64,000 nucleotides of DNA from Caldicellulosiruptor saccharolyticus DSM 8903 (GTDB lineage Bacteria; Bacillota; Thermoanaerobacteria; Caldicellulosiruptorales; Caldicellulosiruptoraceae): assembly GCF_000016545.1 (NCBI RefSeq), contig NC_009437.1, positions 62,001 through 126,000 on the forward strand, in the 5' to 3' direction. Below are positions 5,597-37,307 of this stretch, piece by piece. The notes below the pieces were generated by a model. It was not told the origin of the DNA. It did no database searches and saw only the letters and a list, made by a program, of their open reading frames with translations. Both the position numbers and the translations under genes were made by a program. Each line of letters begins with the position of its first letter. Position 1 is the stretch's first letter.

Positions 5597-6037
5597 ATGG
5601 AGTATTATTCTCACAAAAATCCTGATAAGCTTCTTTATGATCACCTTCTTGAAGTTTATCACTATGCTATGGAGGCAAATGTTGAGCTTAAGAACTGGGA
5701 AAAAGAAGCGCTGCAAATTATATGTCTTTGTCATGACTTTGGGAAATTTACAACATTTTTTCAAAGTCATCTTAGCGGTGTATCAAGCAAGCATTCACAG
5801 CATGGTTTTTTATCAGCCATCTTTGGAGTCTTTTGCTGGATGCAAAAGAAAGGACTGTGCTTACAACAGATGAACCCCCCAGCTTCTTTAGATGAAGTCA
5901 TATCTCTTTTGATTTACGCTTGCATTCTTCACCATCACGGAGATGTCAAGGATATTAGCAAGAACCTGCCAGAAAAGTTTAAAGGAGATTTCAAGGCAGA
6001 TATAATGTTATTGTCAATACCTTTTCCCCACTTTTGA
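5597..6037 (+). pseudogene. cas3: cas3 5' fragment: N-terminal part of the HD nuclease domain
   Basis: It encodes the start of Cas3, the HD nuclease-helicase that degrades target DNA in type I interference. Visible metal-ligand motifs are DHLLEVYHYA, CHDFGKF (the HD pair), SQHGFLS and CILHHHGD. True cas3 sequence ends at 6005, where an IS21-family element begins. The last ten codons and the stop come from the element. Joining 5597-6005 to 9805-11819 restores an open frame of 807 codons across the junction, a normal Cas3 length. This fragment alone lacks the last HD-domain aspartate. Confidence 0.92.
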
Positions 6038-6071
6038 TAATATTTTTTCCCCACCTGTTTTCAAAAAAAAT

Positions 6072-6863
6072 TTAATTATCATTATTTAACTGATTTGAGT
6101 CATTCTTGGAATCATATGTTAAAGCTTTTATAGCACCCTCCCTTTGCTTCATCCTATAACTTTCACCTTTGATAACTACAAAATGACAGTGATGTACAAA
6201 TCTATCTAAAATCGCTGTCGCTAAAACTGGATCATAAAATATCCTCGGCCACTCTTCAAATACTTTGTTTGTGGTTATTATTATCGATCCTCTCTCATAC
6301 CTCTTTGATATTATCTCATAAAAATCATCTACACTGCTTTGATTAAATTTCCTTAAGCCCAGCTCATCTATTATTAACAAATCCACATTAACATAGTTTT
6401 TTAGCTTTTGTTGATACGAATTATCCGCTCTTGAAATATACAACTCTTCTAACATCTCATTTGCTGTGGTAAACAAAACTCTATATCCAAGTGCTACAGC
6501 TTTAAGTCCTATCGCTATTGCAAGATGTGTCTTCCCTGTCCCTGGTGGTCCTATGAAGGCCACATTCTCCCTTTTTCGGACAAATTCACAGGTCGCCAAA
6601 TTGTATATAAACCTTTTATTAATTGAAGGCTGATAATTAAAATTGTATTCTTCTAACGTCTTGTGCCATGGAAACTTCGCTTTGCTTATCCTCTTTTGAT
6701 TACTGTTTATTCTCCTGTTACTCACTTCATCATTTATCAATATCTCAAAAAACTCTTGATATGAAAAGTTATTCTTAATAGCTTCCTCTACTCTTAAATC
6801 AAAACTTTTTATTATCCCGGATAATTTCAAATCCTTTAACTTCCCCAACAAAAGATCATTCAT
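6072..6863 (-). CDS. istB: IstB-like AAA+ ATPase of the IS21-family element
   Basis: A 263-residue transposition helper ATPase. Walker A is GPPGTGKTHLAIA (about residues 104-116) and Walker B is LLIIDELG (about 162-169). Its ATG overlaps the natural istA stop in an ATGA arrangement at 6860-6863, the usual translational coupling of istA and istB. The frame looks intact, but its partner istA is interrupted upstream by the IS256-like insertion. Confidence 0.92.
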   Translation of the reverse strand: MNDLLLGKLKDLKLSGIIKSFDLRVEEAIKNNFSYQEFFEILINDEVSNRRINSNQKRISKAKFPWHKTLEEYNFNYQPSINKRFIYNLATCEFVRKRENVAFIGPPGTGKTHLAIAIGLKAVALGYRVLFTTANEMLEELYISRADNSYQQKLKNYVNVDLLIIDELGLRKFNQSSVDDFYEIISKRYERGSIIITTNKVFEEWPRIFYDPVLATAILDRFVHHCHFVVIKGESYRMKQREGAIKALTYDSKNDSNQLNNDN

Positions 6864-6976
6864 CTTTGCAATTCTCCTATCTCAAGCAATTTGTCATATT
6901 CCCTGATATCCCTGTAAAGCTCTGTTCTTTCCTCATTAATATAGCTCTCATCTTCATAGGGAGTTAAAATAAAATT

Positions 6977-8248
6977 GTGTCCACTGTATAATTAGTGTTG
7001 AAATAATCACCAAAGGGGGGCTCACGATTATGGAGAAAAATGAAATTTTTGAAACCGCTAAAAATATGGCTATCGAGCAAGTATTAAATATGTATTGCTC
7101 CAAAGATGATCCTACTCGCCCAGCTTTAAAACAGCTTTTGGAAAACTTGCTCGATTGCTTTATGTTATCAGAAAGAACTGTTTACCTTGCTAAAAACGAA
7201 AACGATAAAGGCAATGGTTTTTACGGCAGAAAACTTGCAACACCTGTTGGCAGCCTTGAAATTTCTGTTCCTCGCACACGCTCTGGTAACTTTCGACCTT
7301 CCATTCTCCCTGACCGCTACAAAAGGGTTGACAGCTCATACACTGACCTGCTCATGTCTTTAGTCGCCAATGGTTACTCAGAAAGTTCTCTTGTCCAAAC
7401 TCTTAAAAGCATGAATCTGCCTTATTCTGAAGACGAAATCGAAAAAATCAAAAACGATCTTAAAAACGAGCTTCAACTTTTCAAACAAAGAGAACTTCCT
7501 GAAAGTGCTTTTGCTCTTATCATTGACGGTTACCATTGCGAAATTAAAGATAACTCAAAAGTTAAACAAGCTACTTGCTATGTCGTGCTTGGCATTGATT
7601 TAGAAGGCAAAAAAGATATCTTCGGTATCTACACTTTCTTCGGCAAAGAAAACAAAGCCGATTGGATGAGAGTCTTTGACGACTTAATTACAAGAGGTCT
7701 TAAAAAAGTCTTAATAGTTGTAAGCGATGATTTTCCAGGCATTATCGATGCTGTTAGACTCGCTTATCCCCTTGCCGACCATCAACTATGTTTTGTTCAC
7801 CTTCAACGCAATGTCAGAAAACATATGGCAAAAGATGATGCTTCCGTTTTCAACAAAGAGCTTGATAAACTAAGAACTTCCTCTGCTGATTTTGACGAAG
7901 CTATTTCAAAGTTCAAACTTCTTTGTGAGCAATACTCCTCAAAATATCCTCGATTCATAAAAGGTATTTGCGAAAAAGCAGAGTTCTATCTTGCACATAT
8001 GAGGTATCCTGAAGATTTAAGAAAGTACATTTATACTACTAATGCTGTAGAAAGCGTAAACAGTATGATTGAAAAGATAAGAATAAACTCCGGTGGTTAT
8101 TTTCAATCTGTAGAAGTTTTAGAGATAAACATATATTTACAAAGAGAAAACTTGCGTCGGGGCAAGTGGAAAAACGGAGTACCTATTCTTAAAAAATGTA
8201 GTTACAATATATTACAGCTCTACAATATACGCTATGAAATGGAAACAC
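6977..8248 (+). mobile_element. IS256-like (mutator-type) element nested in istA
   Basis: A 1272-bp element with short imperfect ends, GTGTCCACTG on the left and GTGTTTCCATTT in reverse complement on the right. AAAATT is duplicated at 6971-6976 and 8249-8254. Deleting the element with one copy restores an open istA reading through to its natural stop overlapping istB. A 6-bp duplication is shorter than the usual 8-9 bp of IS256, so the tips could shift by a base or two. Confidence 0.82.
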
Positions 8249-8259
8249 AAAATTCTTGA
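7030..8259 (+). CDS. IS256/mutator-family transposase
   Basis: A 409-residue mutator-type transposase. Catalytic acidic residues fit D in LIIDGYHCEI, D in VVSDDFPGI and E in TTNAVESVNSMIEK. The middle motif DHQLCFVHLQRNVRKH is typical of the family. AAAGGGGGG precedes the ATG. The frame runs past the proposed right tip at 8248, so the last codons and the TGA lie in istA sequence. The gene otherwise looks complete. Confidence 0.92.
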   Translation: MEKNEIFETAKNMAIEQVLNMYCSKDDPTRPALKQLLENLLDCFMLSERTVYLAKNENDKGNGFYGRKLATPVGSLEISVPRTRSGNFRPSILPDRYKRVDSSYTDLLMSLVANGYSESSLVQTLKSMNLPYSEDEIEKIKNDLKNELQLFKQRELPESAFALIIDGYHCEIKDNSKVKQATCYVVLGIDLEGKKDIFGIYTFFGKENKADWMRVFDDLITRGLKKVLIVVSDDFPGIIDAVRLAYPLADHQLCFVHLQRNVRKHMAKDDASVFNKELDKLRTSSADFDEAISKFKLLCEQYSSKYPRFIKGICEKAEFYLAHMRYPEDLRKYIYTTNAVESVNSMIEKIRINSGGYFQSVEVLEINIYLQRENLRRGKWKNGVPILKKCSYNILQLYNIRYEMETQNS

Positions 8260-9655
8260 CAAGTCTCTCTTCATACTCAGGTAAATCGCTTATCCCTTTT
8301 TCACATATATTCTTCACAAGCTTGTAACTCAATCCTCTGAATTTTAAAGCCCTCTTACACGCATTGTCTACCATCTTTGATCCATATCTTTCTTTTAATG
8401 CTATTATCCCACTTATGCTTCTGTAGTCATACTTCTTAAATCCTTCTTGCTCGGTAAATTCTTCAAAAAACTTCAACGCCCACTCCCCAATTTCTGCCAT
8501 TTGCTCCCTCTGTCTTGACATTATATCCTCAATTGTTATATTCTTAGACGAGGGATAGTGTTCTTTGTTGGTTACGTATTTGCCCTTCTCATTGTTTTTG
8601 ACAATCTGATGAAGGGCTATTTCTTTACCCTCAAAGAACACCCTCAAAAAACTGCCAATCTCAACTACCTCTACTTCACCTCCTGCATACTCATATGGCA
8701 CTGAATAATAGTTCCCTTTGTATATGAGATGACAGTTAGTAGCTACTTTATGAATTGAACTTCTTGATATGTAATATTCCTCAACAGGAAGAGCTATTAA
8801 CTTCTCTTTCTCTTCTGAGATGAAAACTTCTTTGGGAACTTTCTTGGTTGTGCCATGTACTCTCACATTTGCTACATTGTCAAGCCAGTTTTTTAAATAC
8901 TCCCTCGCCTCATCAATATCCTTAAATTCTTCCCCAGAAAAACAATTTTGCTTAACATACTTAATTGCTGATTCTACTTTGCCTTTATCAGTCGGTGTGT
9001 ATACCCTACATGGCTGAGGTAAAAATCCATAGTGGCTTGCAAAACTTGCATAATCTTTTTGTATTTGCGCCTCATAAAAATCAACATTCAATACACCTGC
9101 TTTTAAGTTGTCTATCTTTACAACTTCTACTACCCCACCAAAATACTTAAATGCGTTCTTATGACACTGTATAAATGTTTCAACTGTCTGCTCAAATACT
9201 ATCTCTGCATACATATATCTTGAATAACTTAAAACCATTGTAAATACCCATGCTTTTTTGAATTTGCCATCAACTTTTATCTTGCCTATATATCCAAAAT
9301 CAACTTGAGCTTCTTCTGCAGGCAGTGTTGTTAAAACCATGTACACCTTTGAATTTGCTATCTTTTGTTTTACCTTTTGGACATATCTTCTTACATTCGA
9401 GTAGCTTCCTTCAAAACCAAATTCCGCTTTCAAGTCTTGATGTATTTTCTTTGCTGAAAGTCCTTTATTAACCTTTACCTCAATGAACTCCCTGTAATTA
9501 TCTAATACAGAACCTTTTGATTTTCTCTCGACTTCTCCTTTCTGTTCAATGTCATGGATTACTTTTCTAACAGTTTTTCTATCCACGTCTAACAATCTTG
9601 CTATTTGACTTTTGTTGTATCCCCGTTTGAAAAGTGTGTAGATTGTTGTGTGCAT
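8189..9655 (-). pseudogene. istA: istA transposase, interrupted near its C-terminus
   Basis: This IS21-family IstA has an N-terminal helix-turn-helix (YNKSQIARLLDVDRKTVRK) and a DDE core with AQVDFGYIG, VVKIDNLKAG and KGKVESAIKYVK. Genuine istA codons end at about 8249 with LVKNF. Residues after that are read from the nested element. The rest of the gene (FILTPYEDESY to ELQR and stop) is at 6860-6976. I choose ATG 9655 (MHTTIYTLFKRG), preceded by GGGGG; an upstream ATG at 9670 is possible. About 39 C-terminal residues are lost, so activity is doubtful. Confidence 0.85.
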
Positions 9656-9686
9656 TGCAACCCCCAACATTTTCTTGTTATCTTCT

Positions 9687-9730
9687 CCTTCTGTAGTTTT
9701 CCCATACTTTCCATTCTACACTACAGAAGG
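9687..9730 (-). promoter_or_regulatory. Fold-back repeat upstream of istA
   Basis: CCTTCTGTAG (9687-9696) is an exact inverted copy of CTACAGAAGG (9721-9730), with 24 bp between. On the minus strand the proximal arm runs into AAGGAG, a ribosome-site-like sequence ahead of istA. The layout resembles the fold-backs at 1523, 15212 and 44294. Confidence 0.5.
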
Positions 9731-9797
9731 CTTCTTTTTAAGTGGCAGGTGGGGAATTTTTAGTGTCATTTCTGATGATTTTATTTTATCATTAACA

Positions 9798-11819
9798 GAT
9801 ATAAACCTTGTTCAGAAAATAGATGATGCCTATGTTCAGATTGAGGATTTGAGGTGCAACGCTGAAGATATAAAACCTTTGCTTGAAAAAATTGGACTTG
9901 GCAACGAATTTGAAAAGTTTTTGGCACAGCAAAGGGGTTTTATAGAGGATATCCTAAGATATCTTAAAAGAATTGAATATGGCATTCGCTTGATTGGTAT
10001 GATACCGCAGGCTTTCAAAGATGGAACTGAGCTTTATTTTGCCCAGCAAAAGTTGTATTCTCTTCTCATATGGGCAGACAAGATGTCGGCTGCAAATTAC
10101 AAGTTACTGTTTCCTTGCTATGCTTCGTCAGACAGACTTATTGTGGCAAGAGACAAAGTTATCAAACCAACTCAGGACAAAAATCTGCAGAGAATAAGGC
10201 AAAGTGTGTTTGAGGCTGTGCTTTCAAATATTGAAAAGAACAAAGAGAAAGATATATTTTCAATCACAACACCAACTGGTACAGGAAAGACTTTGGCAGG
10301 AGTTTTTGCAGCATTAAAACTGAAAGAGATTTTGAAAAAGTCTGGAAGGATAATATATGCTCTTCCGTTTACCTCTATAATAGACCAAAACTACCATGTT
10401 GTCGAAAATCTATTTGAGGCAATAGAAGATTTTGAAAAAAACAGAGACAGGTACTTGTTAAAACACCATCATTTAACTGATGTTGAGTTCAAGGGTAAAG
10501 AAGGAGCGCTAAAAGAAATTACAGATGAAATTACTGTATTTGAAAAAGTTGCTTCAGAGTGTTTTATAGAAAACTGGACATCTGGGTTTGTAGTGACAAC
10601 ATTTGTCCAGCTGCTTGAAACTTTAATTTCGAACAGAAACAGGATGCTCAAAAAATTTCATACTTTTTATGACTCAGTACTTCTCCTTGATGAGATTCAG
10701 GCAATTGATGTTGAGCTTTTGCCGCTTGTTGAAGAGGTCTTGAGAAAACTGACACAGCTTTTCAGGTGCAAGATTATTCTCATGACAGCCACAAAACCGC
10801 TTATATTCGAAGATGCTTGTGAGCTTGCAGGGTTTTGTGACTATTCAATTTTTAACAGAACAAAGCTTATGTATCACCACAGCGATTTAAAAGTAGCTGA
10901 ATTTGTGGATTTCTTCTTACAAGAGGTATATGAAGACGAAAAATCGTTTTTGATTGTTGCCAACACCATAAATCAGTCGCATCAAATCTACAATGGCATA
11001 AAAAACAACCTCAAAAATAAAGAGGTTATTTACCTTTCAGCAAGCCTTGTACCAAAAGATAGAAAAGATATTATAAAGAAAATAGAAAAAATGTTAGAAA
11101 GCGGAGCAAAACCCATTGTTGTTTCAACTCAGGTGATTGAGGCAGGGGTAGACATTGACTTTGATTGTGTAGTAAGAGACATAGCTCCTATTGATTCAAT
11201 AATCCAGTGTGCAGGAAGGTGCAACAGGCACAATGAAAAAAGCCAGGGTAGTGTGCTGGTTGTAAACATGAAAGATGAAAGTGGCATAACCTTTGCAAAA
11301 AGAGTTTATGGCAACACGGCAATTGAAATATCAAGAGGACTTCTTTTGAAGCATCTTGAGGTGGAAGAAAAAGACTATGGTATGCTGATTGATAATTATT
11401 TCAGGATGATAAAAGAAAATAAATCATTTAAAAAGTCTGAAGAGTTTTTGAAGGCAATAAGGCTTTTAAAGTTTGACAGTATTCTGGAAAAGGAAGAGCT
11501 CACAATCTCAAGGTTTAGTCTTATCCAGCAGCGGGGTGGGTATGTCAGCGTCATCATAAGAAGCAATGAAGAAATAGAAGATGCTTATCAAAGGTATATA
11601 GACTCTTTTTCCATTAAAGATTATTACGAAAGAAGAGAAATCTATCTTAAACTTAAAAATATCCTTTTTGAATACACAATTTCTGTACCAATAAAATACG
11701 CCCAGATTTTTGATGAAGAGAAAGGAATATTATCTTTGCCACCCACATCCTGCCAGCGATACTATAGCCCTAAGACAGGATTTGTGTATGACCCAAACGA
11801 CCATATTATTTTTGCCTGA
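9798..11819 (+). pseudogene. cas3: cas3 3' fragment: end of HD domain plus helicase
   Basis: The rest of Cas3. It begins with the end of the HD domain, including LIWADKMSAA with the final HD aspartate. The superfamily 2 helicase follows: TPTGTGKTLAG (Walker A), LLDEIQAID (motif II), MTATKP (motif III), AGVDID and QCAGRCNRH (motifs V-VI). The frame is open from 9648, but codons before 9798 are IS21 sequence. A helicase-only protein could start from an internal ATG or IS-derived start, but the metal site is divided between two fragments. cas4 follows 28 bp downstream. Confidence 0.92.
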
Positions 11820-20737: not shown

Positions 20738-20851
20738 AATTTTTGCCTGTAAATATTTTCTTCAAAGATATTTTGTTGTATAATGGTATAAAGTGTATTG
20801 TTATTACTGAATCTGTCGAATACACAACAAAAAAGAAGGTGGGCAAGAAAG

Positions 20852-23335
20852 ATGATTTTTTACAATGCTCATCAAACAGAAGAAGATAAGAACTTTGACT
20901 ACACTCTTTTTCTTGGCGCAATCCTGCACGATATTGGCAAATTTTTTATGAGAACAGAAAACCAAGATGCTAAAAAGAACATCTCAAAAGAGTATGAAAT
21001 GTTTTACAAGGGAGAAGGCAAATATTCACCGCGTCATCAGGAGTGGAGTGCGTTTTTTGTCGAACATTTTTTGCCAGAAAGTTTAAAAACGGTCACATCT
21101 CTTGTTCTGTATCATCACAGACCATCTTCATACCAGCAGTTTTTGATAAGCGTTGCTGACAAGATTTCGGCAAAAGTTGACAGAAAAGACTTAAGCGACG
21201 AAGAAGCAGCAGATGACAAGTCAAAGTACTTGATCTCTGTTTTGTCCCAAATAAGCCTTGATGAAAAAAAGGGAAATACGAAAACTCCTTATTATAAGCT
21301 TCTGAAAAAAAGGTATGAAGTTGAACCACCTTCCAAAAGTTTCAACACAGATGCAAAGGATGACTATCAAAACCTGTGGTCAGAGTTTTCAAAAAAGGTA
21401 AATGCTTCAAAAAATGGCTTTGGAAGCTCATTTGACTTAGAAGATTTTGCAACTGCCATTTACAACTTGCTTAGAATTTACACATACAACATTCCATCTG
21501 CTTTTTACTATTCGCAGCCTGACATATCCCTTTGGGCGCACAGCAAGTCAACTGCTGCAATTGCATTTTGTCTTGACAGGCAGCTGAAAAAAGAGTTTTC
21601 CCAGGAAAATGAAAGAGTAAGAGTTTTGGAGGCAATCAACACAAAGCTTTTGCCTGGGAATGAATCTGCGATAAAAAAGGGTGACTATCCGTACTTTTGC
21701 CTTGTGAAAGGCGACGTTTCCGGAATTCAGGATTTTGTTTTTGACACAAAGATGGACGGAGCTTTGAAGGCTCTCAAGGCAAAGTCATTTTACATCTCAT
21801 TTTTGCTTGACACCATTGCAAGATACATCCTCAAAGAAGAAAAAATGCCAATCTGCAACCTCATATACAACGGTGGAGGGCACTTTTACCTTCTGATGCC
21901 TGGGTATTTTATGAGGAAACTTTCGCAATATCAGCAAAAAATCGACAAAATTCTTTTTTCTGCACACAGAAGGGCTCTGAGTGTGCTTTTAGAGGCTGCA
22001 GAGGTTGATTTGTACGATTTTGCACACAACTTTGGCGACTGTTTTGATAGAGTTTCAAGAAATATTCAGAAAAAGAAGGCTTGCAAGTTCAAGAATGTGC
22101 TGGAAGAAACGAAAATGGAATTTTTCGAGCCATGGGAAGATTATGAACAAAAGTGTCCTCACTGTGGAAGAAAGATAGAACCAAAAGAGGATGACCCTGA
22201 TTTTTGTCGCTTTTGCAAAAGTTTTGTAGATTTTGGTGATGATCTTATGAAAAGCTTGTTCGTTATAGATTCGTGGGGAAGAGAAAAAGAGTTTTCAGAA
22301 TTTTCTGATATTCACAATGTACTTAAAGCTTTTGGTAGATACGTTCAATTTTCCAATCACTATGAAAGCGTTTCAAACACGCTGATTTTGGACAGAAGCA
22401 GGATAGAAGATTTGCAGAGAAAGCAAATGGAAATTGAAAAAGGGCAAAAAGGGCCAAAATCAGGGTTTGAAAGCGAGTTCTGTGAAGACCTTGACATCTC
22501 AACCCATGTACCTTTCAAAAATGAAGATGAAAAAGTGCTAATGCTCATAGATGACATAGCAGAGTCAGCAAAAGGGATTAAAACATGGGGCATTGTTCGA
22601 GGAGATGTTGACAATCTTGGCGACATCTTCAAAAAGGGGCTTGGAGAGGATAATTCGATTTCAAGAGTGATGACATTGTCAGAGGAGTTTTCGATATTCT
22701 TTGGCTATTACTTCAACAAACTGATAAAAGAACAAAATGGGAATATCATGGTCATCTACGCAGGTGGGGATGACTTTTGCATACTTGGTCAATGGGATGT
22801 TCTTCCACAGACAGCGCACAGGATTTATACAGAGTTTAGAAGCTTTTCTTGTTGGAACTCTGATGTCACTCTTTCGATGGGCTTTGAAATAGCACCAGAT
22901 AAAAAGTATCCAATTTACAGGGTTGCGATGGTATGTGGCGATCACTTAGAGCAGGCAAAAGAGTATGAAAGGGAAAATGGCAAGAAAAAGGACTGTTTTG
23001 CATTTGGTGCAAACTTTGTTGGCTGGGAAGAGTTTGAGGATTTGAAAAAGCTCAAAGAATTGATTGCTGACCTTGTTGGGAACAAAAATGTCTCAAAAGC
23101 GCTTATAAACGGCATCTATGCCGTTTGCAGTCTTAAAAAGATGGCAGATGACCAAAGAGAACTTTTCAAGGCATGGCGATTTGTGTATTTCATGGCAAGG
23201 CTGAAGGAGAGGTATTCTAAATGTTCAACCGAACTTGAAAGTGTTTTAAACAAAATCATTGATGAAAAGACAAATACTCTTTACAAACACTCTTACTTGG
23301 CAGCGCGCTGGGCTGAACTTGAGCTGAGAAGATAA
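20852..23335 (+). CDS. cas10: Cas10/Csm1, type III-A effector subunit with HD and GGDD domains
   Basis: An 827-residue Cas10. The N-terminal HD nuclease motif is ILHDIGKFF (H26-D27), with YHHRPSS further on. A zinc-ribbon CPHC ... CRFC lies at about 435-457. The cyclase-palm motif YAGGDDF has GGDD at about 638-641. Both ssDNase and cyclic-oligoadenylate synthesis look possible, and the latter would feed Csx1 at 33658. The ATG at 20852 follows AAGGTGGGCAAGAAAG. csm2 starts 25 bp later. Confidence 0.93.
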   Translation: MIFYNAHQTEEDKNFDYTLFLGAILHDIGKFFMRTENQDAKKNISKEYEMFYKGEGKYSPRHQEWSAFFVEHFLPESLKTVTSLVLYHHRPSSYQQFLISVADKISAKVDRKDLSDEEAADDKSKYLISVLSQISLDEKKGNTKTPYYKLLKKRYEVEPPSKSFNTDAKDDYQNLWSEFSKKVNASKNGFGSSFDLEDFATAIYNLLRIYTYNIPSAFYYSQPDISLWAHSKSTAAIAFCLDRQLKKEFSQENERVRVLEAINTKLLPGNESAIKKGDYPYFCLVKGDVSGIQDFVFDTKMDGALKALKAKSFYISFLLDTIARYILKEEKMPICNLIYNGGGHFYLLMPGYFMRKLSQYQQKIDKILFSAHRRALSVLLEAAEVDLYDFAHNFGDCFDRVSRNIQKKKACKFKNVLEETKMEFFEPWEDYEQKCPHCGRKIEPKEDDPDFCRFCKSFVDFGDDLMKSLFVIDSWGREKEFSEFSDIHNVLKAFGRYVQFSNHYESVSNTLILDRSRIEDLQRKQMEIEKGQKGPKSGFESEFCEDLDISTHVPFKNEDEKVLMLIDDIAESAKGIKTWGIVRGDVDNLGDIFKKGLGEDNSISRVMTLSEEFSIFFGYYFNKLIKEQNGNIMVIYAGGDDFCILGQWDVLPQTAHRIYTEFRSFSCWNSDVTLSMGFEIAPDKKYPIYRVAMVCGDHLEQAKEYERENGKKKDCFAFGANFVGWEEFEDLKKLKELIADLVGNKNVSKALINGIYAVCSLKKMADDQRELFKAWRFVYFMARLKERYSKCSTELESVLNKIIDEKTNTLYKHSYLAARWAELELRR

Positions 23336-23360: not shown

Positions 23361-23777
23361 GTGGTTATGCCAGCACAGGGTGGTAACAATGCATTGGCTT
23401 TGAAAGATGATATTTTGAGCAAGATTGAAACTGCTATTGACCCCGAAAAAGACAAAGATGGCAAGGCTTTTTCAGATGTTGCTGAAAAGACAGGTCAACT
23501 TTTAAAGGAGTCGGGCGTCACCATTACTCAGATCAGAAAGTTGTTTACTGAGGTAAAAAGACTTTCTCCAGAAGATGACAATTACAAATACAAATTGAAG
23601 CTTTTGAAAGCAAAGCTTGCGTACACCGCAGGTAGATTTAAAAAAATGAAACATTTTCAGGAAATAATCGACAAGGCTCTTCCTGTTGCAGAAAAGAGCC
23701 CAGAGGCTCTAAACAGGTTCAAAGACTTTTTTGAAGCAGCTGTTGCATATCACAAATACTTTGGTGGCGACCAATAA
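23361..23777 (+). CDS. csm2: Csm2, small subunit of the type III-A complex
   Basis: A 138-residue, mostly helical protein in the csm2 position between cas10 and csm3. ITQIRKLFTEVKRL and KLLKAKLAYTAGRFKK match the Csm2 family pattern. It forms part of the inner filament of the Csm complex. The start is GTG 23361 or ATG 23367; GAGAGGGTG upstream suits either. Confidence 0.88.
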   Translation: MVMPAQGGNNALALKDDILSKIETAIDPEKDKDGKAFSDVAEKTGQLLKESGVTITQIRKLFTEVKRLSPEDDNYKYKLKLLKAKLAYTAGRFKKMKHFQEIIDKALPVAEKSPEALNRFKDFFEAAVAYHKYFGGDQ

Positions 23778-23806
23778 AAATATCTCAAAAGGGGGAGACT
23801 ATTGCC

Positions 23807-24598
23807 ATGGATGTAATCTTGAAGGGGAAATACATTATAAAATGTAAAATAAGAGCTGTAACAGGTCTTCACATTGGTGAGGGCAACAACAGCATTGAGA
23901 TAGGCGGAATTGACAATGCAGTTGTGAAAGATGCAGAAGGCAAGCCTTACATTCCAGGTTCTTCTCTCAAAGGTAAGATGAGGGCATTGATGGAGTTTGC
24001 GGAGGGCAAAGTAAAAGATGATCTGATGGTTGTGGCAGTTAAGAAAGGTGACAAACCGGAGATATGCCTTCACATGTGCGATGACAAAGACTGTCCTGTT
24101 TGTGGGCTTTTTGGTAGAAATCACGGCTTACATGATAAAAAGAGTGGCGGGAAAATTGATCTTACGGATGCAGTCATTCCAACAAGGCTCATTGTTCGCG
24201 ATGCAAAGCTGATAGAAAGCTCTATCACAGATGAGATGAAAGAGAACCTTGACCTTGAATGGACAGAAGTAAAGTTTGAGAACAACATAGACAGAATAAC
24301 CTCAAAGGCACATCCAAGACAGAGCGAAAGAGTTCCTGCAGGCGCTGAATTTTCAGCAGAGTTTGTTGTCAACAGGTACGAGGTTGACGGAAGCGATGAT
24401 GGTGAGAAGTACTTAAGTAAGTTCATCAAAGCAATGAAGCTTTTAGAAGATGATTACTTGGGAGGTCAAGGTTCAAGAGGAAACGGTAAAGTTAAGTTTG
24501 TGGATATAGAAATATTTTACAAAGATTCAAGCGACTATGAAAAAGACAGTAACGACCTAAAACCAATTGCAACTGCACCGAGCCTGGACCAGCTTTAA
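23807..24598 (+). CDS. csm3: Csm3, crRNA-binding backbone and target-RNA nuclease
   Basis: A 263-residue RAMP. IEIGGIDNAVVKD holds the conserved aspartate that cuts target RNA every six bases in Csm complexes. IPGSSLKGKMRALMEF is the classic Csm3 motif. GGQGSRGNGKVKF near the end is the glycine-rich RAMP loop. It also has MCDDKDCPVCGLFG with a cysteine pair. GGGGGAG precedes the ATG. It appears complete. Confidence 0.94.
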   Translation: MDVILKGKYIIKCKIRAVTGLHIGEGNNSIEIGGIDNAVVKDAEGKPYIPGSSLKGKMRALMEFAEGKVKDDLMVVAVKKGDKPEICLHMCDDKDCPVCGLFGRNHGLHDKKSGGKIDLTDAVIPTRLIVRDAKLIESSITDEMKENLDLEWTEVKFENNIDRITSKAHPRQSERVPAGAEFSAEFVVNRYEVDGSDDGEKYLSKFIKAMKLLEDDYLGGQGSRGNGKVKFVDIEIFYKDSSDYEKDSNDLKPIATAPSLDQL

Positions 24599-24641
24599 AC
24601 TTGCAACAAAGTAGAATTTGTTATTTAAAAAGGTGATAAAG

Positions 24642-25652
24642 ATGGGCAAAGGCAAATTGTACAGGGTATTAATGCACTTTACCACACCTCTTCACATCGG
24701 CGAAAAGGAAAAGATATACAATATAACCCAGACGTTTGCGCATTCAGACATGCTGATGTCGGGGATAATAAACGCATATTCACTATTGTACGGCAACAGT
24801 AGTACAAACCAGCTGGTGGAGAGTTTTTTGCAGAAAAGTCTGCCTTTTGAGATTTCTTCTACGATGCCATATGTCGGCAATGAATTTTTTGTACCAAAAC
24901 CGATTGGGTTGCACCTTCATCTTTACAAGGATAGAGGCATAATTGAGGTTGAAAAGGACAAGGAAATCAAAAAGGTGAAATTCATAAGAGAAAAAGATTT
25001 GCTGAGCAATTTCCCAGGAAAATACAGAGTAGCAGGGAGCTTCTTGCTGCCCAAAGATATGCTTCACAAATTTGGTGATAGCGAAAAAGCACCATCCTTG
25101 GGAAAAATTAAAGAGAGGGCAAGGGTTTCAATAGACAGGCTAAGTTCTTCCTCAAACATATACTATTTTTCTCACTTTGAGTTCAAAGACAATGCGGGAC
25201 TGTGGTTTTATCTCAGAATAAACGACCAGAGCTTGGAAGATAAGGTCAAAGCCGCAATGAGACTTTTGAGCGATGAAGGACTTGGCGGCGATAGAACCTG
25301 CGGGCTTGGCAGCTTTAAAGTTAACTTTGAAGAATGTAGCATGCCAGAAGAAAATGACAGAGCAAAATATTACATGAGCCTGTCACTTGTAAATCCTCAA
25401 AGTGAAGATGAGTTAAAAAGTGCGCTGTATTATGAAATTTTGACGCGAAGCGGCTACATCTACTCAAAGGCAGGGCTTGGCATAAAAAGAAAAGCTGTAA
25501 GAGCATTTGCAGAAGGGACTGTATTTTCAGGAAAAGTTTGCGGCAGGGTGGTTGATGTAACACCTCAGAACTTTTCTCAGCACAGGGTATATTGTTTTGG
25601 GCTTGCGTTTTTGCTTCCCCTGCCGGAAGGGGTGATGATGATTGACAACTGA
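24642..25652 (+). CDS. csm4: Csm4, 5'-handle RAMP of the type III-A complex
   Basis: A 336-residue RAMP. HFTTPLHIGEKEK at the start and DEGLGGDRTCGLGSF (the glycine-rich loop) are Csm4 features. It binds the crRNA handle and Cas10. The ATG at 24642 follows AAGGTGATAAAG. Its stop overlaps the csm5 start region, indicating coupling. Confidence 0.92.
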   Translation: MGKGKLYRVLMHFTTPLHIGEKEKIYNITQTFAHSDMLMSGIINAYSLLYGNSSTNQLVESFLQKSLPFEISSTMPYVGNEFFVPKPIGLHLHLYKDRGIIEVEKDKEIKKVKFIREKDLLSNFPGKYRVAGSFLLPKDMLHKFGDSEKAPSLGKIKERARVSIDRLSSSSNIYYFSHFEFKDNAGLWFYLRINDQSLEDKVKAAMRLLSDEGLGGDRTCGLGSFKVNFEECSMPEENDRAKYYMSLSLVNPQSEDELKSALYYEILTRSGYIYSKAGLGIKRKAVRAFAEGTVFSGKVCGRVVDVTPQNFSQHRVYCFGLAFLLPLPEGVMMIDN

Positions 25653-26808
25653 ATTTTTTGAAAGCAGGGTATACGAGGTAGAAATTCTGACTCCAACTGT
25701 AATTGGCGGGCAGGACAAAATCCAGAGCTTTGAGTTTGTCAGAGACGGCGCTTATTTGTATTTTATAAACTTCGATAGGCTACTTGAGGAAAATCTTTTC
25801 AAGGAAAGCTTTGTTGATGAGCTGACACGCGGACTTTCAGGAAACCTCAAAGATTTCAACATCCACGATGTCATGACAAAATACAACATGGATTTTAGGC
25901 AATTCTCAAAGTACAAGTTAAAGCTTGAGGGGGTTCAAAAGTTTCCAAGAGAAATTGTGGCTTTTGTCAAGAGCGCAGGAAGGTTTTATATTCCAGGGTC
26001 GTCCCTCAAAGGTGGGATAAGGTCTTTTGTGACAAAGGCGCTAAAGAAGGATTTAATAAAGCACTATGAAGATGCGCTAAACCCAAAAGGTAGGGTTAAC
26101 CCGCAACATCTTAGCAGCGATGCAGATAAGAAAGTATTTTCGTCACCGGACCAATCACCCTTTAAATACCTTCAGATAAGCGATAGCAGTTTTGCAGATC
26201 CAGATGATGTAGCAGTTTTTGAGATAAAAGTTATGAACATTTGCAGCGGTCAGGTTAAGTGGTTTGCGGGGGTGAAAGAGGGAAAAACAAACAACGTAGA
26301 TAACCCAGAACAATCTTCTTCAATCCTTGCAGAGGGAATAAAGCCTGGGGTTAAAGTTTTTGGCAGCATGAAGGTTGAGAAAGACTTTGTTGATGGAAAC
26401 GAGGTTGTAAGTGGGCTCAAAGGGAAAATTGGTATAAATGTTTCAGCAGCTTCTCCTGAAGAGTTTTTAGCAGAGGTTATGAGAGCTGTTGCCAGAGATT
26501 ACATTAAAAGAGAGATAGATTTCTACAGCAAGTACAATCAAGCTCAGATTGTCTCAGAGTACCGTAAGCTTTTGGATATTTTGAACTCTCTTGAACCAAA
26601 TCAGTTTTTAATTCAGATAGGATTTTCAACAGGGTATTTGTCAAAGACTGTGGGGATATTTTTTACAAAGACTCACTTTGAGAAGTTAAAGATGATTGAC
26701 AAAAAATCTAATATATATCCTGATCTTTTCCCGAAGACAAGAAGAATAATCTTCAAAAACGGGCAAGTTTACACAGTCCCCGGCTGGATAAAGGTAACCA
26801 TTAGATGA
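25642..26808 (+). CDS. csm5: Csm5, 3'-end RAMP of the type III-A complex
   Basis: A 388-residue RAMP starting at TTG 25642 inside the csm4 end. LTPTVIGGQDKIQSFEFV and FYIPGSSLKGGIRSFVTKAL are Csm5 signatures. It caps the filament and takes part in crRNA 3' maturation. Its stop overlaps the ATG of the cas6-like gene by 4 bp. Confidence 0.92.
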   Translation: MTTEFFESRVYEVEILTPTVIGGQDKIQSFEFVRDGAYLYFINFDRLLEENLFKESFVDELTRGLSGNLKDFNIHDVMTKYNMDFRQFSKYKLKLEGVQKFPREIVAFVKSAGRFYIPGSSLKGGIRSFVTKALKKDLIKHYEDALNPKGRVNPQHLSSDADKKVFSSPDQSPFKYLQISDSSFADPDDVAVFEIKVMNICSGQVKWFAGVKEGKTNNVDNPEQSSSILAEGIKPGVKVFGSMKVEKDFVDGNEVVSGLKGKIGINVSAASPEEFLAEVMRAVARDYIKREIDFYSKYNQAQIVSEYRKLLDILNSLEPNQFLIQIGFSTGYLSKTVGIFFTKTHFEKLKMIDKKSNIYPDLFPKTRRIIFKNGQVYTVPGWIKVTIR

Positions 26809-27428
26809 TGGGATGTGATGAAAAAGTGGTAAAATACTTTTCATTTCATTTCTGGGCAAGGGAGGATGGCGTATTTTTGCCATCCTCTTATTACTCTAAG
26901 GTATATGAAGCTTTGAAAAGTCTTCTTGCCACAGAGCATTTTACCATCTCACCCATTAGAACAAAAAACAAAAAAGAAGTTGAAGATGGCATATGGGTGT
27001 TCGAAGATTTTAGAATATACCTTGCCACACCTTTTTTAGAGCTTGTTACACAGAACATATTAAAGATTTATGAAAATTTAAATGCTTTGTTTGATGATAT
27101 TTACTTGAAGAGAATTTCATGCAGGACCCAGCAACCAAAGATAATTGGAAATTTGTTAAGTGGAGTGTTTGCTCAAAAAGACGGTGCTTGCTTAGAATAT
27201 GACAGGCAGCCAGAGATTTTTTCAGAGATGCTAAGAAGACATCTTTTGAGCATATACTATCAAAAGTTTGGAGTATACCCGGAAGACCAGAGGTTTTTCT
27301 TTGTGATAAAAGATGGTCTGAAGAAACAGCATTTGATTGAATCGAGAATTGAGTATTTTGGCAAGTATGAAATTTTTGCCTCAAAAGAACTTCTGGAAAT
27401 GTTTTGTCAAACGTTTTGTGTAAAATGA
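26805..27428 (+). CDS. Cas6-like crRNA endoribonuclease, probably truncated
   Basis: A 207-residue protein at the end of the csm operon, where cas6 is common. The order of segments fits Cas6: FSFHFWAREDG, ISPIRTKN, FRIYLATPFLELVTQNIL, LLSIYYQKFGV, and RIEYFGKYEIFASKELLEMF just before the expected glycine-rich loop. The protein stops there with FCVK. The same frame continues past the TGA as AWARKKLIELNCT to a TAA at 27470, which looks like a normal Cas6 end with its loop glycines lost. The RAMP assignment is by pattern, not by a strong motif. If correct, crRNA processing may be impaired. Confidence 0.5.
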   Translation: MMGCDEKVVKYFSFHFWAREDGVFLPSSYYSKVYEALKSLLATEHFTISPIRTKNKKEVEDGIWVFEDFRIYLATPFLELVTQNILKIYENLNALFDDIYLKRISCRTQQPKIIGNLLSGVFAQKDGACLEYDRQPEIFSEMLRRHLLSIYYQKFGVYPEDQRFFFVIKDGLKKQHLIESRIEYFGKYEIFASKELLEMFCQTFCVK

Positions 27429-29080: not shown

Positions 29081-29156
29081 AAATAATATAAATTGTCTTT
29101 CGAATAATAACTCAAAAGTTGAAATCTCTATTCTGCTGCTTGCTAAAACAATAAAA

Positions 29157-31566: not shown

Positions 31567-31782
31567 AAATAATATTCTATTTGTGTGTTTTAAAAATACA
31601 AATTGTTAATCACCCATCTTGTGATTTTGCGGAGTAGTTATAGGTAACCAAGTATGAGTTTAATTGAAGCAGCCCAGTAAATGAATTTAACATGAAATCA
31701 ACTTCGCATATTTTTTGAACTGAAAAAGCCAAAATAATAGATAAAATACAAATTGTAGGTAAAATTTAGGGGAGTTGAGAAA

Positions 31783-33162: not shown

Positions 33163-33191
33163 TTCAACTTTTTGGCAAAGTAGTATATAAT
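33163..33191 (+). promoter_or_regulatory. Putative csx20-csx1 promoter
   Basis: TTCAAC (33163-33168), 17 bp, TATAAT (33186-33191), 23 bp upstream of the TTG start at 33215. The csx20-csx1 pair therefore has its own promoter, apart from the csm operon. Confidence 0.55.
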
Positions 33192-33214
33192 CTAAATTAA
33201 AGGAGTGAAAAGTT

Positions 33215-33613
33215 TTGAATAGGCTGTTTTTGATATTTAATCACATTCTCACAGAAGAACAGGAAAAAGAAGCAAGAGAGGTGCTTGGAGTTGAGGAGAT
33301 AATTTCACTTCCTCAAGATTTGCAGAATTTTTGGAGCAACATACCGCCGGATGTTGATTTAAATGAGGAAATGTTCAAACCTATTGTTTCATTTTTGAGT
33401 AGAAACAAAAGCCAAAACCTCAACTACTGCCTTATTCAAGGAGATTTTGGCGCAACAGTGTATCTTGTCAGCTGGTGCTTCAAAAATGGTTTTATTCCTA
33501 TTTATGCCACAACTAAAAGAACAGCTCAAGAAGTTATAAAGCCAGACGGTTCTGTTGAATTAATAAAGATCTTCAAGCATGAGAGATTCAGAAGATATAT
33601 CCTTTGCAGCTAA
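33215..33613 (+). CDS. csx20: Csx20-like type III accessory protein, candidate ring nuclease
   Basis: A 132-residue protein. LNYCLIQGDFGATVYLVSWC and then FIPIYATTKR are the motifs I associate with Csx20. That family is listed among candidate ring nucleases that remove cyclic oligoadenylate. It starts at TTG 33215 with AGGAGTG upstream. csx1 follows 44 bp later, which fits an on/off signalling pair. Confidence 0.7.
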   Translation: MNRLFLIFNHILTEEQEKEAREVLGVEEIISLPQDLQNFWSNIPPDVDLNEEMFKPIVSFLSRNKSQNLNYCLIQGDFGATVYLVSWCFKNGFIPIYATTKRTAQEVIKPDGSVELIKIFKHERFRRYILCS

Positions 33614-33657
33614 AAAAATTTTGTCTGCAAACCTTTTTTGAAGAAAGGGGTTTTTAT

Positions 33658-35085
33658 ATGAAGATTATTTACCAAATTGGACGATTTGACAATCCCAAAG
33701 CTGCGCTGAAAGAGTTTTTTATAACCAAATTTAACGATGAGGTTGTAAACTTTTCAAAAGTTTCAGAGCTTTCCAGCTTTGTTTTAAGGGATTTTTTAAG
33801 ACAGCAAGGGCAAGAGGCAAAAGCAGCCGTGATTTATCCTGTCAGCATTGTTCTAAATGAAAGGCTCAAAGATTGGGTAGAAGATGACTCATTAAAAGAG
33901 GAACTGGAAAGGATATATGAAAATCCTTCAGAATATCTCAAATCTCCTTTTGATATAATAGACAGGCTTCCTCTTGAGAGGCTGAGAGATGAAACAGTTG
34001 TGATTCATTCGCTTGGGACATATCTTAAAAATGTAGAGCTTGATGGTAGCTATGACGATATAGTCCTTGAGATTCTGTTTGACATGATAGAAAGGTATAT
34101 GAATGAAGATGTGGATGAGATTTATCTTGACATCTCAAGTGGGCACAACATATACATATCAGCAATGATAGAGGCATCAAGGCATTTTGCGGTTTTTACA
34201 AGACTTATGCACTGGATTCATGAAGAAAAGCGTCCAAAGATATACCTTACGTTTTCAGACCCTATTATAGGAAGCACAGCAGAATCTTTTGAGATACACA
34301 TTCAGCCACAGAGCTATACAGCTTTTTTCTCATCCCCGATCAGCAAAAAAGAAGCCTGCGACCACAACTTTTCGTTTTTGAGAAATATCTATCAAGAGCC
34401 ACAAGATGACCAGAAAGGCAACAATAAAGTTTTGCAAAAACAACAAATACGACAGAAGAGAAGGTCTTTGAAAGAAAAGATAGAAATGTTTACCATTTTA
34501 TTCTCAGCAATCAAAAATAACGTTCCACTGTATTTATACTACCATCCATACCATTCTATAGATGAGATTAAAAATGAACTTAAAAATCTCATCAGCCATG
34601 CAAAAGACCAGCTTTTAAAAGACTTTAAAAGTTCTCCAAAGCTCAACAAAAAAGCATACTTAGATGCAATTTTGAGTTTGGAATTTTACATGGGCATTGT
34701 TGAGGTTTTAGTTTTAGAAAAATACAACATCACAATGTTTTGCCAAGAGACTGGGTTTGATTTGGAGAATCTTGGGAAGACTTTTGCAGAGATTTATACA
34801 ATATTTGGTATTCCGATGAACTGGACGATGCTTGGCAATGAGATTTCAAACGACACTGAAAAGATACAGGCGTATGGTGAGACTCAGCAGTGGACAAGGC
34901 TTAGAAAAATTGTCGACCCAACAAAACCAATTGCCGATGAGCCAGACAAGAGAAATTTCTTTGCACATTCAGGGCTTGAAGGTAATGTCACAGAAGTCAA
35001 GTACGACGGCCTCAAAGTGTATGTTAGATATATTCAGGGACTTCCACAGGGCATGATAGATTGCTGGTTGAAAGAAAGAGTGTAA
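33658..35085 (+). CDS. csx1: Csx1-like CARF-HEPN ribonuclease
   Basis: A 475-residue protein from ATG 33658 (MKIIYQIGRF). The N-terminal CARF half has the ligand-binding motif DISSGHNIYISAM (about 158-170). The C-terminal HEPN half ends with RNFFAHSG, the R-x4-H active motif (R432, H437). Cyclic oligoadenylate from Cas10 at 20852 would activate RNA cleavage. The frame upstream of 33658 lacks a good ribosome site. A strong terminator follows at 35115. Confidence 0.88.
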   Translation: MKIIYQIGRFDNPKAALKEFFITKFNDEVVNFSKVSELSSFVLRDFLRQQGQEAKAAVIYPVSIVLNERLKDWVEDDSLKEELERIYENPSEYLKSPFDIIDRLPLERLRDETVVIHSLGTYLKNVELDGSYDDIVLEILFDMIERYMNEDVDEIYLDISSGHNIYISAMIEASRHFAVFTRLMHWIHEEKRPKIYLTFSDPIIGSTAESFEIHIQPQSYTAFFSSPISKKEACDHNFSFLRNIYQEPQDDQKGNNKVLQKQQIRQKRRSLKEKIEMFTILFSAIKNNVPLYLYYHPYHSIDEIKNELKNLISHAKDQLLKDFKSSPKLNKKAYLDAILSLEFYMGIVEVLVLEKYNITMFCQETGFDLENLGKTFAEIYTIFGIPMNWTMLGNEISNDTEKIQAYGETQQWTRLRKIVDPTKPIADEPDKRNFFAHSGLEGNVTEVKYDGLKVYVRYIQGLPQGMIDCWLKERV

Positions 35086-35114
35086 AATATGTTGGTTTAT
35101 CACAGTAAAATTGT

Positions 35115-35157
35115 AAGGCTTGCGGCCGGCTTGGCAAATCTTCCCGCAAGCCTTTTT
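35115..35157 (+). terminator. Intrinsic terminator after csx1
   Basis: AAGGCTTGCGG (35115-35125) pairs with CGCAAGCCTT (35145-35154; 10 bp), followed by TTTTATTT. Confidence 0.85.
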
Positions 35158-35263
35158 TATTTGGCTGCGTCTGCTTTGGAATTTTTTAGACATTTATGTA
35201 AAAGAAAATTTTCTGTCTTTTCTTTCTCAGGGTTGTTTTTTGAGTAGCTTACTATTTGGAAAA

Positions 35264-35293
35264 ATTTCAATCCCCAAAGGGCAGGCTACAAAC
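35264..35293 (-). CRISPR. Solitary CRISPR repeat
   Basis: One copy, ATTTCAATCCCCAAAGGG to AGGCTACAAAC, with a single change in the first base. No second repeat and no leader are seen in the flanks. The space from 35158 to 35391 otherwise holds no gene. Confidence 0.7.
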
Positions 35294-35391: not shown

Positions 35392-35745
35392 CTACTTACT
35401 CTTAGGATTAAAAATAAGCGCTATTACATACCCAAAAAACACAGCTGCGGCAATGCCGCCAGCTGTCCTTGACACTCCCCCTGTGAAGGCTCCTATTAGC
35501 CCAATTTTCTTCACCTCTTCAATAGCACCTTTTGCTAAAGAATATCCAAAGCCAGGGAGAGGGACTGTTGCCCCAGCACCTGCAATATCAACAAGCTTTT
35601 GGTAAAGTCCAAGACCTTGCAAGATTGCGCCAAGGGTTACAAAAAGCACAAGCACCCTTGCGGATGTCAGTTTTGTCTTGTCAATCAAAATCTGACCAGC
35701 AACACAGATAAGCCCGCCAACTACAAATGCCATTAAATAATCCAT
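35392..35745 (-). CDS. spoVAE: SpoVAE-like membrane protein
   Basis: A 117-residue hydrophobic protein with about four membrane segments. GAGATVPLPGFGYSLAKGAIEEV is the SpoVA C/E signature. SpoVA proteins form the spore dipicolinate channel. Last gene of a spoVAC-spoVAD-spoVAE operon. Confidence 0.92.
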   Translation of the reverse strand: MDYLMAFVVGGLICVAGQILIDKTKLTSARVLVLFVTLGAILQGLGLYQKLVDIAGAGATVPLPGFGYSLAKGAIEEVKKIGLIGAFTGGVSRTAGGIAAAVFFGYVIALIFNPKSK

Positions 35746-35786
35746 TTGTCATCATCACCTCTACAAAAGCAGATAAATCAAAGGAT

Positions 35787-36800
35787 TTACTCAATCTCAA
35801 TTGAAAGTGCATGAGCAATCACAGGGATACTTTCACCAAGCTGAACTGTTGAAGAAGACAAAAGCGCTCCAGTTGGCACAATTAGGATTCTTTTGAATGT
35901 TTTTTGAAGCATGAGCTTGTAGAAATATCCACCAAAGATGCATGCAGAGGCTGCACATCCGCTTGCCCCAGCACCAGTGTCTTGTGTCTTTTGGTCGAAC
36001 ATCAAAATCCCACAGTCCAAAAGCTCAAATGACAAGGTTTTCCCTTCTTTTTTGAAAAGCTCTTCAAGAAGCTTTCTTCCCACGTATCCTAAATCACCTG
36101 TGACAATTATATCGTAGTAGGTAAAATCTCTTTTTGTATCCTCAAGATGTGTTGTGATTGTGTCAAACGCAGCAGGTGCCATACACGCACCCATGTTGTT
36201 CGAGTCTTTTATGCCGTAGTCCAAGATTTTTCCAACTGTAAAGTGAGTGATTTTAGGCTTTTGAGTGCCATCCTCAGGCTTTATCAAAAAGGACGCTGCG
36301 CCTGTGACAGTCCACTGTGCTGTCGGGGGGCGCTGGCAACCAAGCTCTAAAGGATATCTGAACTGCTTTTCAGCAGAGCAAAAGTGAGATGACGTTGCAG
36401 CAATTATGTTTTTCGCAAACCCACCGTCAACAAACACACACGCAAGCCCAACAGAGAGTGCAAAAGTTGAACATGCGCCATAAAGCCCTATAAATGGAAT
36501 ATTCAAATCTCTTGCTGCAAAGTGCGAGCTTGTGAGCTGGTTCAAAAGGTCGCCGCTTAAGATCAGGTCAACCTCATCAGGAGTAAAACCACTTTTTTGA
36601 ATAAGTTTTGAAATTGCTATGTTCAAGAGCTTTCCTTCCGCAAGCTCCCAAGATTTTTGCCCGGCATACTCATCTTCAACTACCATGTCAAAGAAGAGCC
36701 CAAGCGGACCTTCCCCTTCCTTTTTACCAACAATGGTAAAACAGTCTGAGATTATAGGGCAGTTTTCAAACTTGAAAGTAGATTTTCCAACCTTTTTCAA
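35787..36800 (-). CDS. spoVAD: SpoVAD, thiolase-like spore protein
   Basis: A 337-residue thiolase-fold protein with LYGACSTFALSVGLACVFVDGG, EKQFRYPLELGCQRPPTAQWTV split over two strands, and GAGASGCAASA. SpoVAD binds dipicolinic acid for uptake into the forespore. It lies 41 bp before spoVAE. Confidence 0.95.
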   Translation of the reverse strand: MKKVGKSTFKFENCPIISDCFTIVGKKEGEGPLGLFFDMVVEDEYAGQKSWELAEGKLLNIAISKLIQKSGFTPDEVDLILSGDLLNQLTSSHFAARDLNIPFIGLYGACSTFALSVGLACVFVDGGFAKNIIAATSSHFCSAEKQFRYPLELGCQRPPTAQWTVTGAASFLIKPEDGTQKPKITHFTVGKILDYGIKDSNNMGACMAPAAFDTITTHLEDTKRDFTYYDIIVTGDLGYVGRKLLEELFKKEGKTLSFELLDCGILMFDQKTQDTGAGASGCAASACIFGGYFYKLMLQKTFKRILIVPTGALLSSSTVQLGESIPVIAHALSIEIE

Positions 36801-36848
36801 TCTGCCAAAGCCCCCTTTGCTGGCTTTTTAGATCAGCCTTGAGGCCAA

Positions 36849-37307
36849 TTAAATCTTTGGGAAAATTTTGATAAAATAGTAGACAAGACCAATTAGTATT
36901 GAGGTAGATATTCCATAGACCAATACAGGTCCTGCAATCAAAAACATTTTGCTGCCAACTCCAAACACAAATCCTTCCTTTTTGTACTCAACAGCAGGTG
37001 AGACAATTGAGTTTGCAAACCCGGTGATTGGAACAATGCTGCCAGCCCCTGCAAACCTGCCTATTTTGTCATACACGCCAATTCCTGTCAAAAACGCGCC
37101 AAGGAAAATCATTGTGATGGATGTAAGTGTCTGTGCCTCATCTTTTGGAAAGTACATTGAATATAGGTTTAAAAAGGCTTGACCAATATCACAAATAATT
37201 CCACCGACAACAAAGGCAAATATGCAGTTTTTGAGAAGGTTTGTTTTTAGCTCATGGGCTTTTACCATATCTTGATACTCTTTTGCCTTCTTTTCTTTAA
37301 GGTTCAC
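36849..37307 (-). CDS. spoVAC: SpoVAC-like membrane protein
   Basis: A 152-residue membrane protein whose short charged N-terminus (KEKKAKEYQDMVKAH) is followed by four or five membrane helices and GAGSIVPITGFANSIVSPAVEY. First gene of the operon. GAGGAATCTATAGAGGTG precedes the start. Confidence 0.93.
   Translation of the reverse strand: MNLKEKKAKEYQDMVKAHELKTNLLKNCIFAFVVGGIICDIGQAFLNLYSMYFPKDEAQTLTSITMIFLGAFLTGIGVYDKIGRFAGAGSIVPITGFANSIVSPAVEYKKEGFVFGVGSKMFLIAGPVLVYGISTSILIGLVYYFIKIFPKI

Follow-up and report, generated by a model that had tools for sequence, protein, structure and literature searches.

The window, the whole 64,000-nucleotide stretch of DNA analysed here, corresponds to C1:62001-126000 of a single-contig 2.97 Mb genome (G000), which also belongs to our family sample of 13 genomes (G000-G012). 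It carries two adjacent open reading frames, both found where a sequence-only reading of this DNA had placed them, which we assign to csx20 and csx1. The same window holds a type III-A operon and a disrupted type I cas3 (Table 1).

Table 1 Positions in the window of the csx20-csx1 pair, its flanking signals and the CRISPR island
Feature	Position	Strand	Basis or remark
csx20, predicted cA4 ring nuclease, 132 aa, TTG start	33215..33613	+	Profile matches, alignment, model
csx1, CARF9 CARF-HEPN ribonuclease, 475 aa from ATG	33658..35085	+	Profiles, motif, fold
Candidate promoter block, TATAAT and AAAGGAG	33163..33209	+	Conserved in G009 and G004
Intrinsic terminator, GC-rich stem followed by a T-run	35115..35160	+	Fold and conservation
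spoVA genes, convergent with the cassette	35392..37307	-	Commonest csx20 neighbour in the genus (synteny)
cas10/csm1 with HD and GGDD, probable cOA source	20798..23335	+	TIGR02578 (682 bits), motifs
csm2, csm3, csm4, csm5, cas6	23361..27428	+	NCBIfam or PADLOC family matches
Type I cas3 split by an IS21-type element	5597..11819		Profile and homology matches
Cas3 HD piece, 146-aa ORF	5597-6034		Matches the Cas3 start
istB	6072-6863	-	
istA	8189-9670	-	
Cas3 helicase piece, 723-aa ORF	9648-11819		

The csx20 product matches NCBIfam NF040559 over the whole model (positions 1-124 of 124; E 1.8e-48) at 164 bits against a cut-off of 70, and the PADLOC Csx20 model at 196.5 bits. Its proposed membership of a candidate ring nuclease family is thus borne out, and the mismatch with the Csx20 profile that the sequence-only reading had named as a possible counter-result did not occur. 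The protein shares 19 invariant residues, candidates for a catalytic role, with the other members of an alignment of 20 Csx20 sequences. Its AF2 model (pLDDT 93) looks CARF-like: in a structure search with that model, 31 of the 33 top matches were CARF or SAVED proteins, judged by their titles, as were 7 among the 17 that followed. The ring nucleases Sso2081 (Z 6.3) and Sis0455 (Z 6.1) were among the matches; the best Z was 7.5, in a range that common folds also reach, and a Z below 8 alone is no proof. Foldseek with the same model gave nothing at E 0.001 or better, its first hit being the lobe of an unrelated ribose-binding protein. Protein searches gave one weak phage match, of 28% identity and annotated as hypothetical, and two plasmid records with csx20. 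According to the accessible part of PMC12409355, a tested Csx20 is a confirmed ring nuclease that prefers cA4 and cuts it fully, and at high concentration Csx20 also degrades cA3.

The csx1 frame opens at a TTG at 33604, with the ATG at 33658 as its likely start. The product matches TIGR01897, the Csx1 equivalog (151 bits; cut-off 110), Pfam Csx1_CARF (PF22230; 30 bits; cut-off 24.7), Pfam Csx1_HEPN (PF09455; 55.6 bits; cut-off 23) and PADLOC CARF9 CARF_HEPN (688 bits), in agreement with the CARF-HEPN ribonuclease identity proposed for it earlier. The HEPN motif at residue 432, RNFFAH, is of the R-X4-H form, within the required R-X4-6-H, and R432 and H437 are invariant across 12 aligned Csx1 sequences that include this one. 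The Csx1 model (pLDDT 81), whose least certain part is residues 432-442 around the HEPN motif, aligned with S. solfataricus 2i71, which we take to be a Csx1 (Z 18.7, 342 residues aligned, rmsd 5.4), with cA4-bound Csm6 6o6x (Z 16.4) and with P. furiosus Csx1 4eog (Z 14.5), the rmsd being 5.4 to 6.2 across these three; S. islandicus Csx1 6qzt aligned at Z 11.1 and rmsd 18.5. Csx1 of this class is defined as cA4-activated in the available text of PMC11229360.

The two genes had been described as sharing their own promoter and terminator, and we find the terminator well supported. The hairpin 3′ of csx1 (within 35100-35165) has a minimum free energy of -21.8 kcal/mol (z -2.27), and the same stem and T-run are found in G009 and G004; a generic terminator scan found 0 sites against 1.6 expected and did not list this hairpin. 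The promoter, the weaker half of that description, is a moderately supported candidate. A perfect TATAAT block directly before csx20 is also present in G009 and G004, though the wider flank differs in the latter. Its -35 box is poor, a sigma-70 scan called no plus-strand site upstream of csx20 (8 sites found in total against 7.0 expected, which is chance level), and a second csx20-csx1 pair in the same chromosome lacks this TATAAT. The unit consists of the two genes alone and neither is a cyclase, so Cas10 would have to act in trans: the pair is self-contained as a transcription unit but not otherwise. Its distance from cas10, earlier given as 6 kb, is 9,880 bp; the earlier figure fits the end of cas6 and of the operon, 5,787 bp before the start of csx20. 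A lone CRISPR repeat lies just past the csx1 terminator (window 35264-35293) and has a counterpart at the equivalent position of G009 (L077 11595). We rejected a defence role for the upstream ORF of 389 aa, since it had no Pfam, NCBIfam or PADLOC match and one weak PHROG match.

Cas10 carries GGDD at residue 656 and HD at residue 44; with the HEPN motif of Csx1, this bears out the key residues claimed for these two proteins. The genes csm1 to csm5 and cas6 have open frames with matches to their families (cas6 by PADLOC only), and csm1 to csm5 together with the cyclase motif of Cas10 identify a type III-A (Csm) system, the integrity of the operon being judged from open frames alone. The type I cas3 is interrupted by an IS21 insertion that spans about 6072-9670. 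The first 50 residues of the helicase-piece ORF match L004 1156-1305, the istA end of a second IS21 copy, which indicates that an IS21-type element split the gene. The broken type I system of the sequence-only reading is thus confirmed at this locus, and, with cas3 split and csm1 to csm5 and cas6 open, the further suggestion that the type III alarm outlives it appears plausible. A 409-aa plus-strand ORF between istB and istA (window 7030-8259) is possibly an insertion within the insertion. Arrays wholly within the window have at most 3 repeats; an array of about 30 repeats crosses its left edge (29 in L004, one at window 25), and a G009 array directly upstream of the same genes has 26. A 289-nt leader-like sequence occurs four times (window 17161-17449, 28801-29089, 31287-31575 and 39008-39296), each time by at most 3 repeats. 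Soon after the csm-cas6 operon, on the opposite strand, lies a HicB-like antitoxin ORF (window 27765-28211).

The chromosome encodes further type III signalling genes. The second csx20-csx1 pair lies at C1:45921-47786 (L004 3921-5786), and its products are 76% (Csx20) and 83% (Csx1) identical to those of the window. The flanks of the two pairs match poorly; IS21 istA/istB genes stand just upstream of the second pair and a CARF2 CARF-HEPN gene follows it (together L004 3921-7179, C1:45921-49179). A type III-D set at C1:542677-551875 (L149 4677-13875) comprises a CARF-PDDEXK effector, Cas10d, Cas5/Cas7 fusions and Csx19. By our reading of the sequence, its Cas10 has AGDE where Csm1 has GGDD, and the accessible text of PMC11229360 gives AGDE among the Cas10 variants of loci with known effectors. 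A presumed second Cas10 at C1:28281 proved to be a GGDEF-EAL protein, the real one being at C1:544746. We conclude that the window pair is one of several cOA-type outputs of this chromosome and is redundant, alongside another csx20-csx1 pair, the CARF2 HEPN protein and the III-D locus, and that two Cas10 proteins may feed it.

Csx20 scored over the cut-off in all 13 genomes of the bacterial family, and Csm1 and TIGR01897 Csx1 in 12 of 13 each. There are 16 csx20 places, 14 intact and 2 broken; every genome has an intact copy, with exactly one in 12 genomes and two in G000. The broken ones are second copies, a relic in G010 and, in G002, a copy adjoining spoVA (L089 9664-10068), the other G002 copy being intact. 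We discarded a count of 15 intact loci, because the second G002 copy stops at its sixth codon and has no usual start before residue ~54. Intact csx20 stands beside an open csx1 in 5 of 14 cases (G000 twice, G002, G004 and G008), beside a broken csx1 in two (G003, which has Csm1, and G009) and beside a CARF2 Csx1 in one (G012), and six copies have no adjacent csx1 (G001, G005, G006, G007, G010 and G011). Nine of the 14, the window's included, are convergent with spoVA genes, as is the broken G002 copy. Of the six intact solo copies, five lie in a gap of 3.9 to 5.0 kb between spoVA and a GGDEF-EAL gene, and so does the broken G002 copy; around the sixth, in G001, there was no GGDEF-EAL gene within the 20 kb taken. 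The corresponding spacing is 67.9 kb in G000, where the CRISPR island lies between, and 23.2 kb in G009. Five neighbours at solo loci, four from G007 and one from G010, had no Pfam or PADLOC match.

At the 12 measurable loci, the nearest csm or cas6 gene is 3.7 to 37.4 kb from intact csx20, and at nine of them the distance is 9.8 to 37.4 kb; G012, with Cas10 on other contigs, and G009, with no Cas10, could not be measured. Relics of csm or cas6 in G005 and G010 were left out of the measure, and both loci stay beyond 6 kb when these are counted. The ring nuclease survey, as far as the available part of PMC12409355 describes it, was confined to proteins no more than 6 kb from a type III locus, a limit beyond which nine of our loci fall; it took the locus edges from another program, and our distances are therefore not exactly the same measure. 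A separate scan of genome contigs gave 210 relatives, of which 80 were kept. Outside the family, 20 genomes passed the Csx20 cut-off and 13 of them were read as having a real Cas10 palm; in 12 of these 13, csx20 and the palm share a contig, ~2 to 7 kb apart (subtracted by hand). Decoupling of csx20 from csm therefore looks like a feature of this bacterial family. We rejected orphan csx20 as a general rule outside it, since six of the seven genomes without a Cas10 palm have RAMP matches, the sole one without being G133, which is 80% complete. Four genomes of the phylum (G113, G187, G327 and G386) have Csx20 matches inside open frames of 564 to 607 aa, possible Csx1-Csx20 fusions.

In a 14-row tree, paired csx20 genes and spoVA-solo ones, the broken G002 copy among the latter, split at 99/96 support; with G012 and outgroups added, this branch was not resolved. 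The paired csx1 genes group at a modest 87/88. From these groupings the pair looks as if it was inherited or moved as a unit, though not at one fixed site. Between the window pair and the G004 pair, dN/dS is low for both genes (0.075 and 0.087). Deeper comparisons, of the window with the second G000 pair or with G002, give 0.16-0.18 for csx20 against 0.09-0.10 for csx1, so that csx20 changes faster than csx1 at this depth.

In G009, a 99% complete genome on one contig, no Csm1 scored over the cut-off. Its Cmr2 is a short fragment with a stop only, the Cas10 palm search gave only a GGDEF-EAL protein (identity by homology), and RAMP matches number none against 9 in G000. Its csx20 product differs from that of the window at one residue. 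We rejected the G009 pair as intact, because codon 33 of the neighbouring csx1 is a stop; dN/dS of this csx1 against the window's is 0.18, compared with 0.09-0.10 for the other four pairs, the G009 dN/dS values being calculated from 5 and 31 differing bases. G009 retains a further open frame of csx1 type (465 aa; 110.4 bits, just over the cut-off), so not all of its effectors are broken. The spoVAD gene of G009, unlike that of its relatives, lies in three frames (L077 12117-13128), and the 389-aa ORF is also broken, so an assembly error is possible there. Coverage by ORFs of at least 250 aa is 0.34 in the G009 stretch around csx20, where two arrays lie; three further stretches of G009 gave 0.48 to 0.69, and the values elsewhere were 0.27 to 0.74.

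These counts suggest, without reaching significance, that csx20 outlasts csx1, the toxin-like partner being lost first and the off-switch later. At paired loci, csx20 is broken in 0 of 7 cases and csx1 in 2 of 7 (P 0.46, not significant); among all family hits, the counts are 2 of 16 and 8 of 23 (P 0.15, not significant), where csx1 is 3.6 times longer than csx20 and part of the csx1 fragments may reflect shared domains of unrelated genes. The broken second csx20 of G002 weakens the idea, and the broken extra copy of G010 and the faster change of csx20 in the deeper comparisons also speak against it. For the csx20 kept in G009, a recent loss of type III, an unrecognised source of cA4 and a simple lag are all possible explanations.

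We consider it very probable that csx20-csx1 is a cassette of type III signalling, transcribed on its own, that joins an effector to its off-switch and acts in trans on cA4. In the mechanism that we propose, Cas10, in the window Csm complex or in the III-D complex elsewhere, would detect foreign RNA and make cyclic tetra-adenylate (cA4). Binding of cA4 to the CARF domain of Csx1 would turn on the HEPN RNase, and a CARF-like dimer of Csx20 would bind and cut cA4 and so end the response. As the messenger would diffuse, the cassette would work in trans, and csx20 could then sit away from csm, occur twice and persist beside a broken csx1; this is how the gene arrangement is most naturally read. 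We infer the messenger, the ring cleavage, the RNase activation and the action in trans together. Some Csx1 proteins degrade their own activator, and Csx20 may therefore be dispensable. In the part of PMC12409355 available to us, ring nucleases with a known effector are linked only to cA4 effectors, and the link between Csx1 and Csx20 is particularly strong.

The cassette could instead serve mainly the III-D complex at C1:542677-551875, or both complexes as one pool, which we regard as unlikely. That set has its own CARF-PDDEXK effector and the AGDE variant found in loci with known effectors (PMC11229360, available text), and by our reading there is no stand-alone ring nuclease among the eight III-D locus ORFs scanned, both csx20 genes lying elsewhere. 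The window pair, however, belongs to the csm island, with cas6 5.8 kb away, and a shared messenger pool would make the two readings compatible. Decay of that island raises a further alternative, namely that the pair is a passenger that no longer matters: cas3 is split, the arrays wholly in the window are short, two sister pairs (G003 and G009) have a broken csx1, and the extra csx20 is broken in G002 and G010. We think this improbable, because both window genes have open frames and a low dN/dS in comparison with G004, the csm genes are open and the long array crosses the window's left edge.

Two other alternatives concern the chemistry. The window Csx20 might be a sponge for cA4 and not a cutter, as is Csx15 of Pseudomonas fluorescens, an orphan of another CARF-like family that sequesters cA4 in the accessible account of PMC13148439. 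There is little chance of this, given the full cleavage of cA4 by the tested Csx20 and the 19 invariant residues that the window protein shares, whose catalytic role is a candidate one. It is very improbable that the messenger is another cOA, such as cA6 or cA3, and that the pair is not tuned to cA4. The degradation of cA3 by concentrated Csx20 would fit such a reading, but the match to TIGR01897, the cA4-bound relative among the best folds and the restriction of ring nucleases with known effectors to cA4 effectors (PMC12409355, in the text available) argue against it.

The Csx20 and Csx1 families and their linkage are already published (PMC12409355). What is new is the presence of csx20 throughout a bacterial family, mostly as one copy far from the sensor, and its retention in one genome with no detectable sensor. 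Among the matches listed, we found no paper dealing with Caldicellulosiruptor ring nucleases or linking Csx20 to spoVA, and none on a family-wide, mostly single, sensor-distant csx20 in a search without preprints and most subscription papers. More tentatively, csx20 could be a whole-cell off-switch acting in trans on cA4, usually placed beside spoVA, one intact copy of which serves all type III systems of the cell; it may be lost after the effector and kept past the loss of type III, perhaps against other cA4. This broader idea is possible rather than probable. If it is true, surveys limited to type III neighbourhoods undercount ring nucleases; a known ring nuclease is present at only 34% of Csx1 loci in the accessible part of PMC12409355, and whether cA4 off-switches are local or whole-cell decides how the number of resettable type III systems is estimated. 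A genome with an intact csx20 and no detectable type III genes offers a natural test of the use of Csx20 without Cas10.

Compared with known systems, the window protein resembles Csx20 (NF040559; PMC12409355, as far as its available text goes) in its whole-profile match, length and adjacency to Csx1, and tentatively in its CARF-like predicted fold. It differs in that the window copy, known from its sequence, sits in its own unit 5.8 kb from csm-cas6, and in that other copies in the bacterial family lie at distances of up to 37 kb or, in one case, in a genome where no type III system was detected. Csx1 resembles the CARF-HEPN RNases of its family (TIGR01897; 4eog, 6qzt and 2i71) in having CARF and HEPN domains, R-X4-H and a matching predicted fold, whereas a PDB sequence search with it reached no chain at E 0.01. 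Orphan Csx15 is likewise a CARF-like cA4-binding protein away from type III loci, but it belongs to another family, and the tested orphan acts by sequestration, according to the part of PMC13148439 available. A parallel in gene content is with the Csx1-Crn2 and Csx1-Csx20 fusions, for which PADLOC has a CARF_HEPN_CSX20 model: effector and off-switch are encoded together in both, in the fusions as one protein and in the window as two separate genes.
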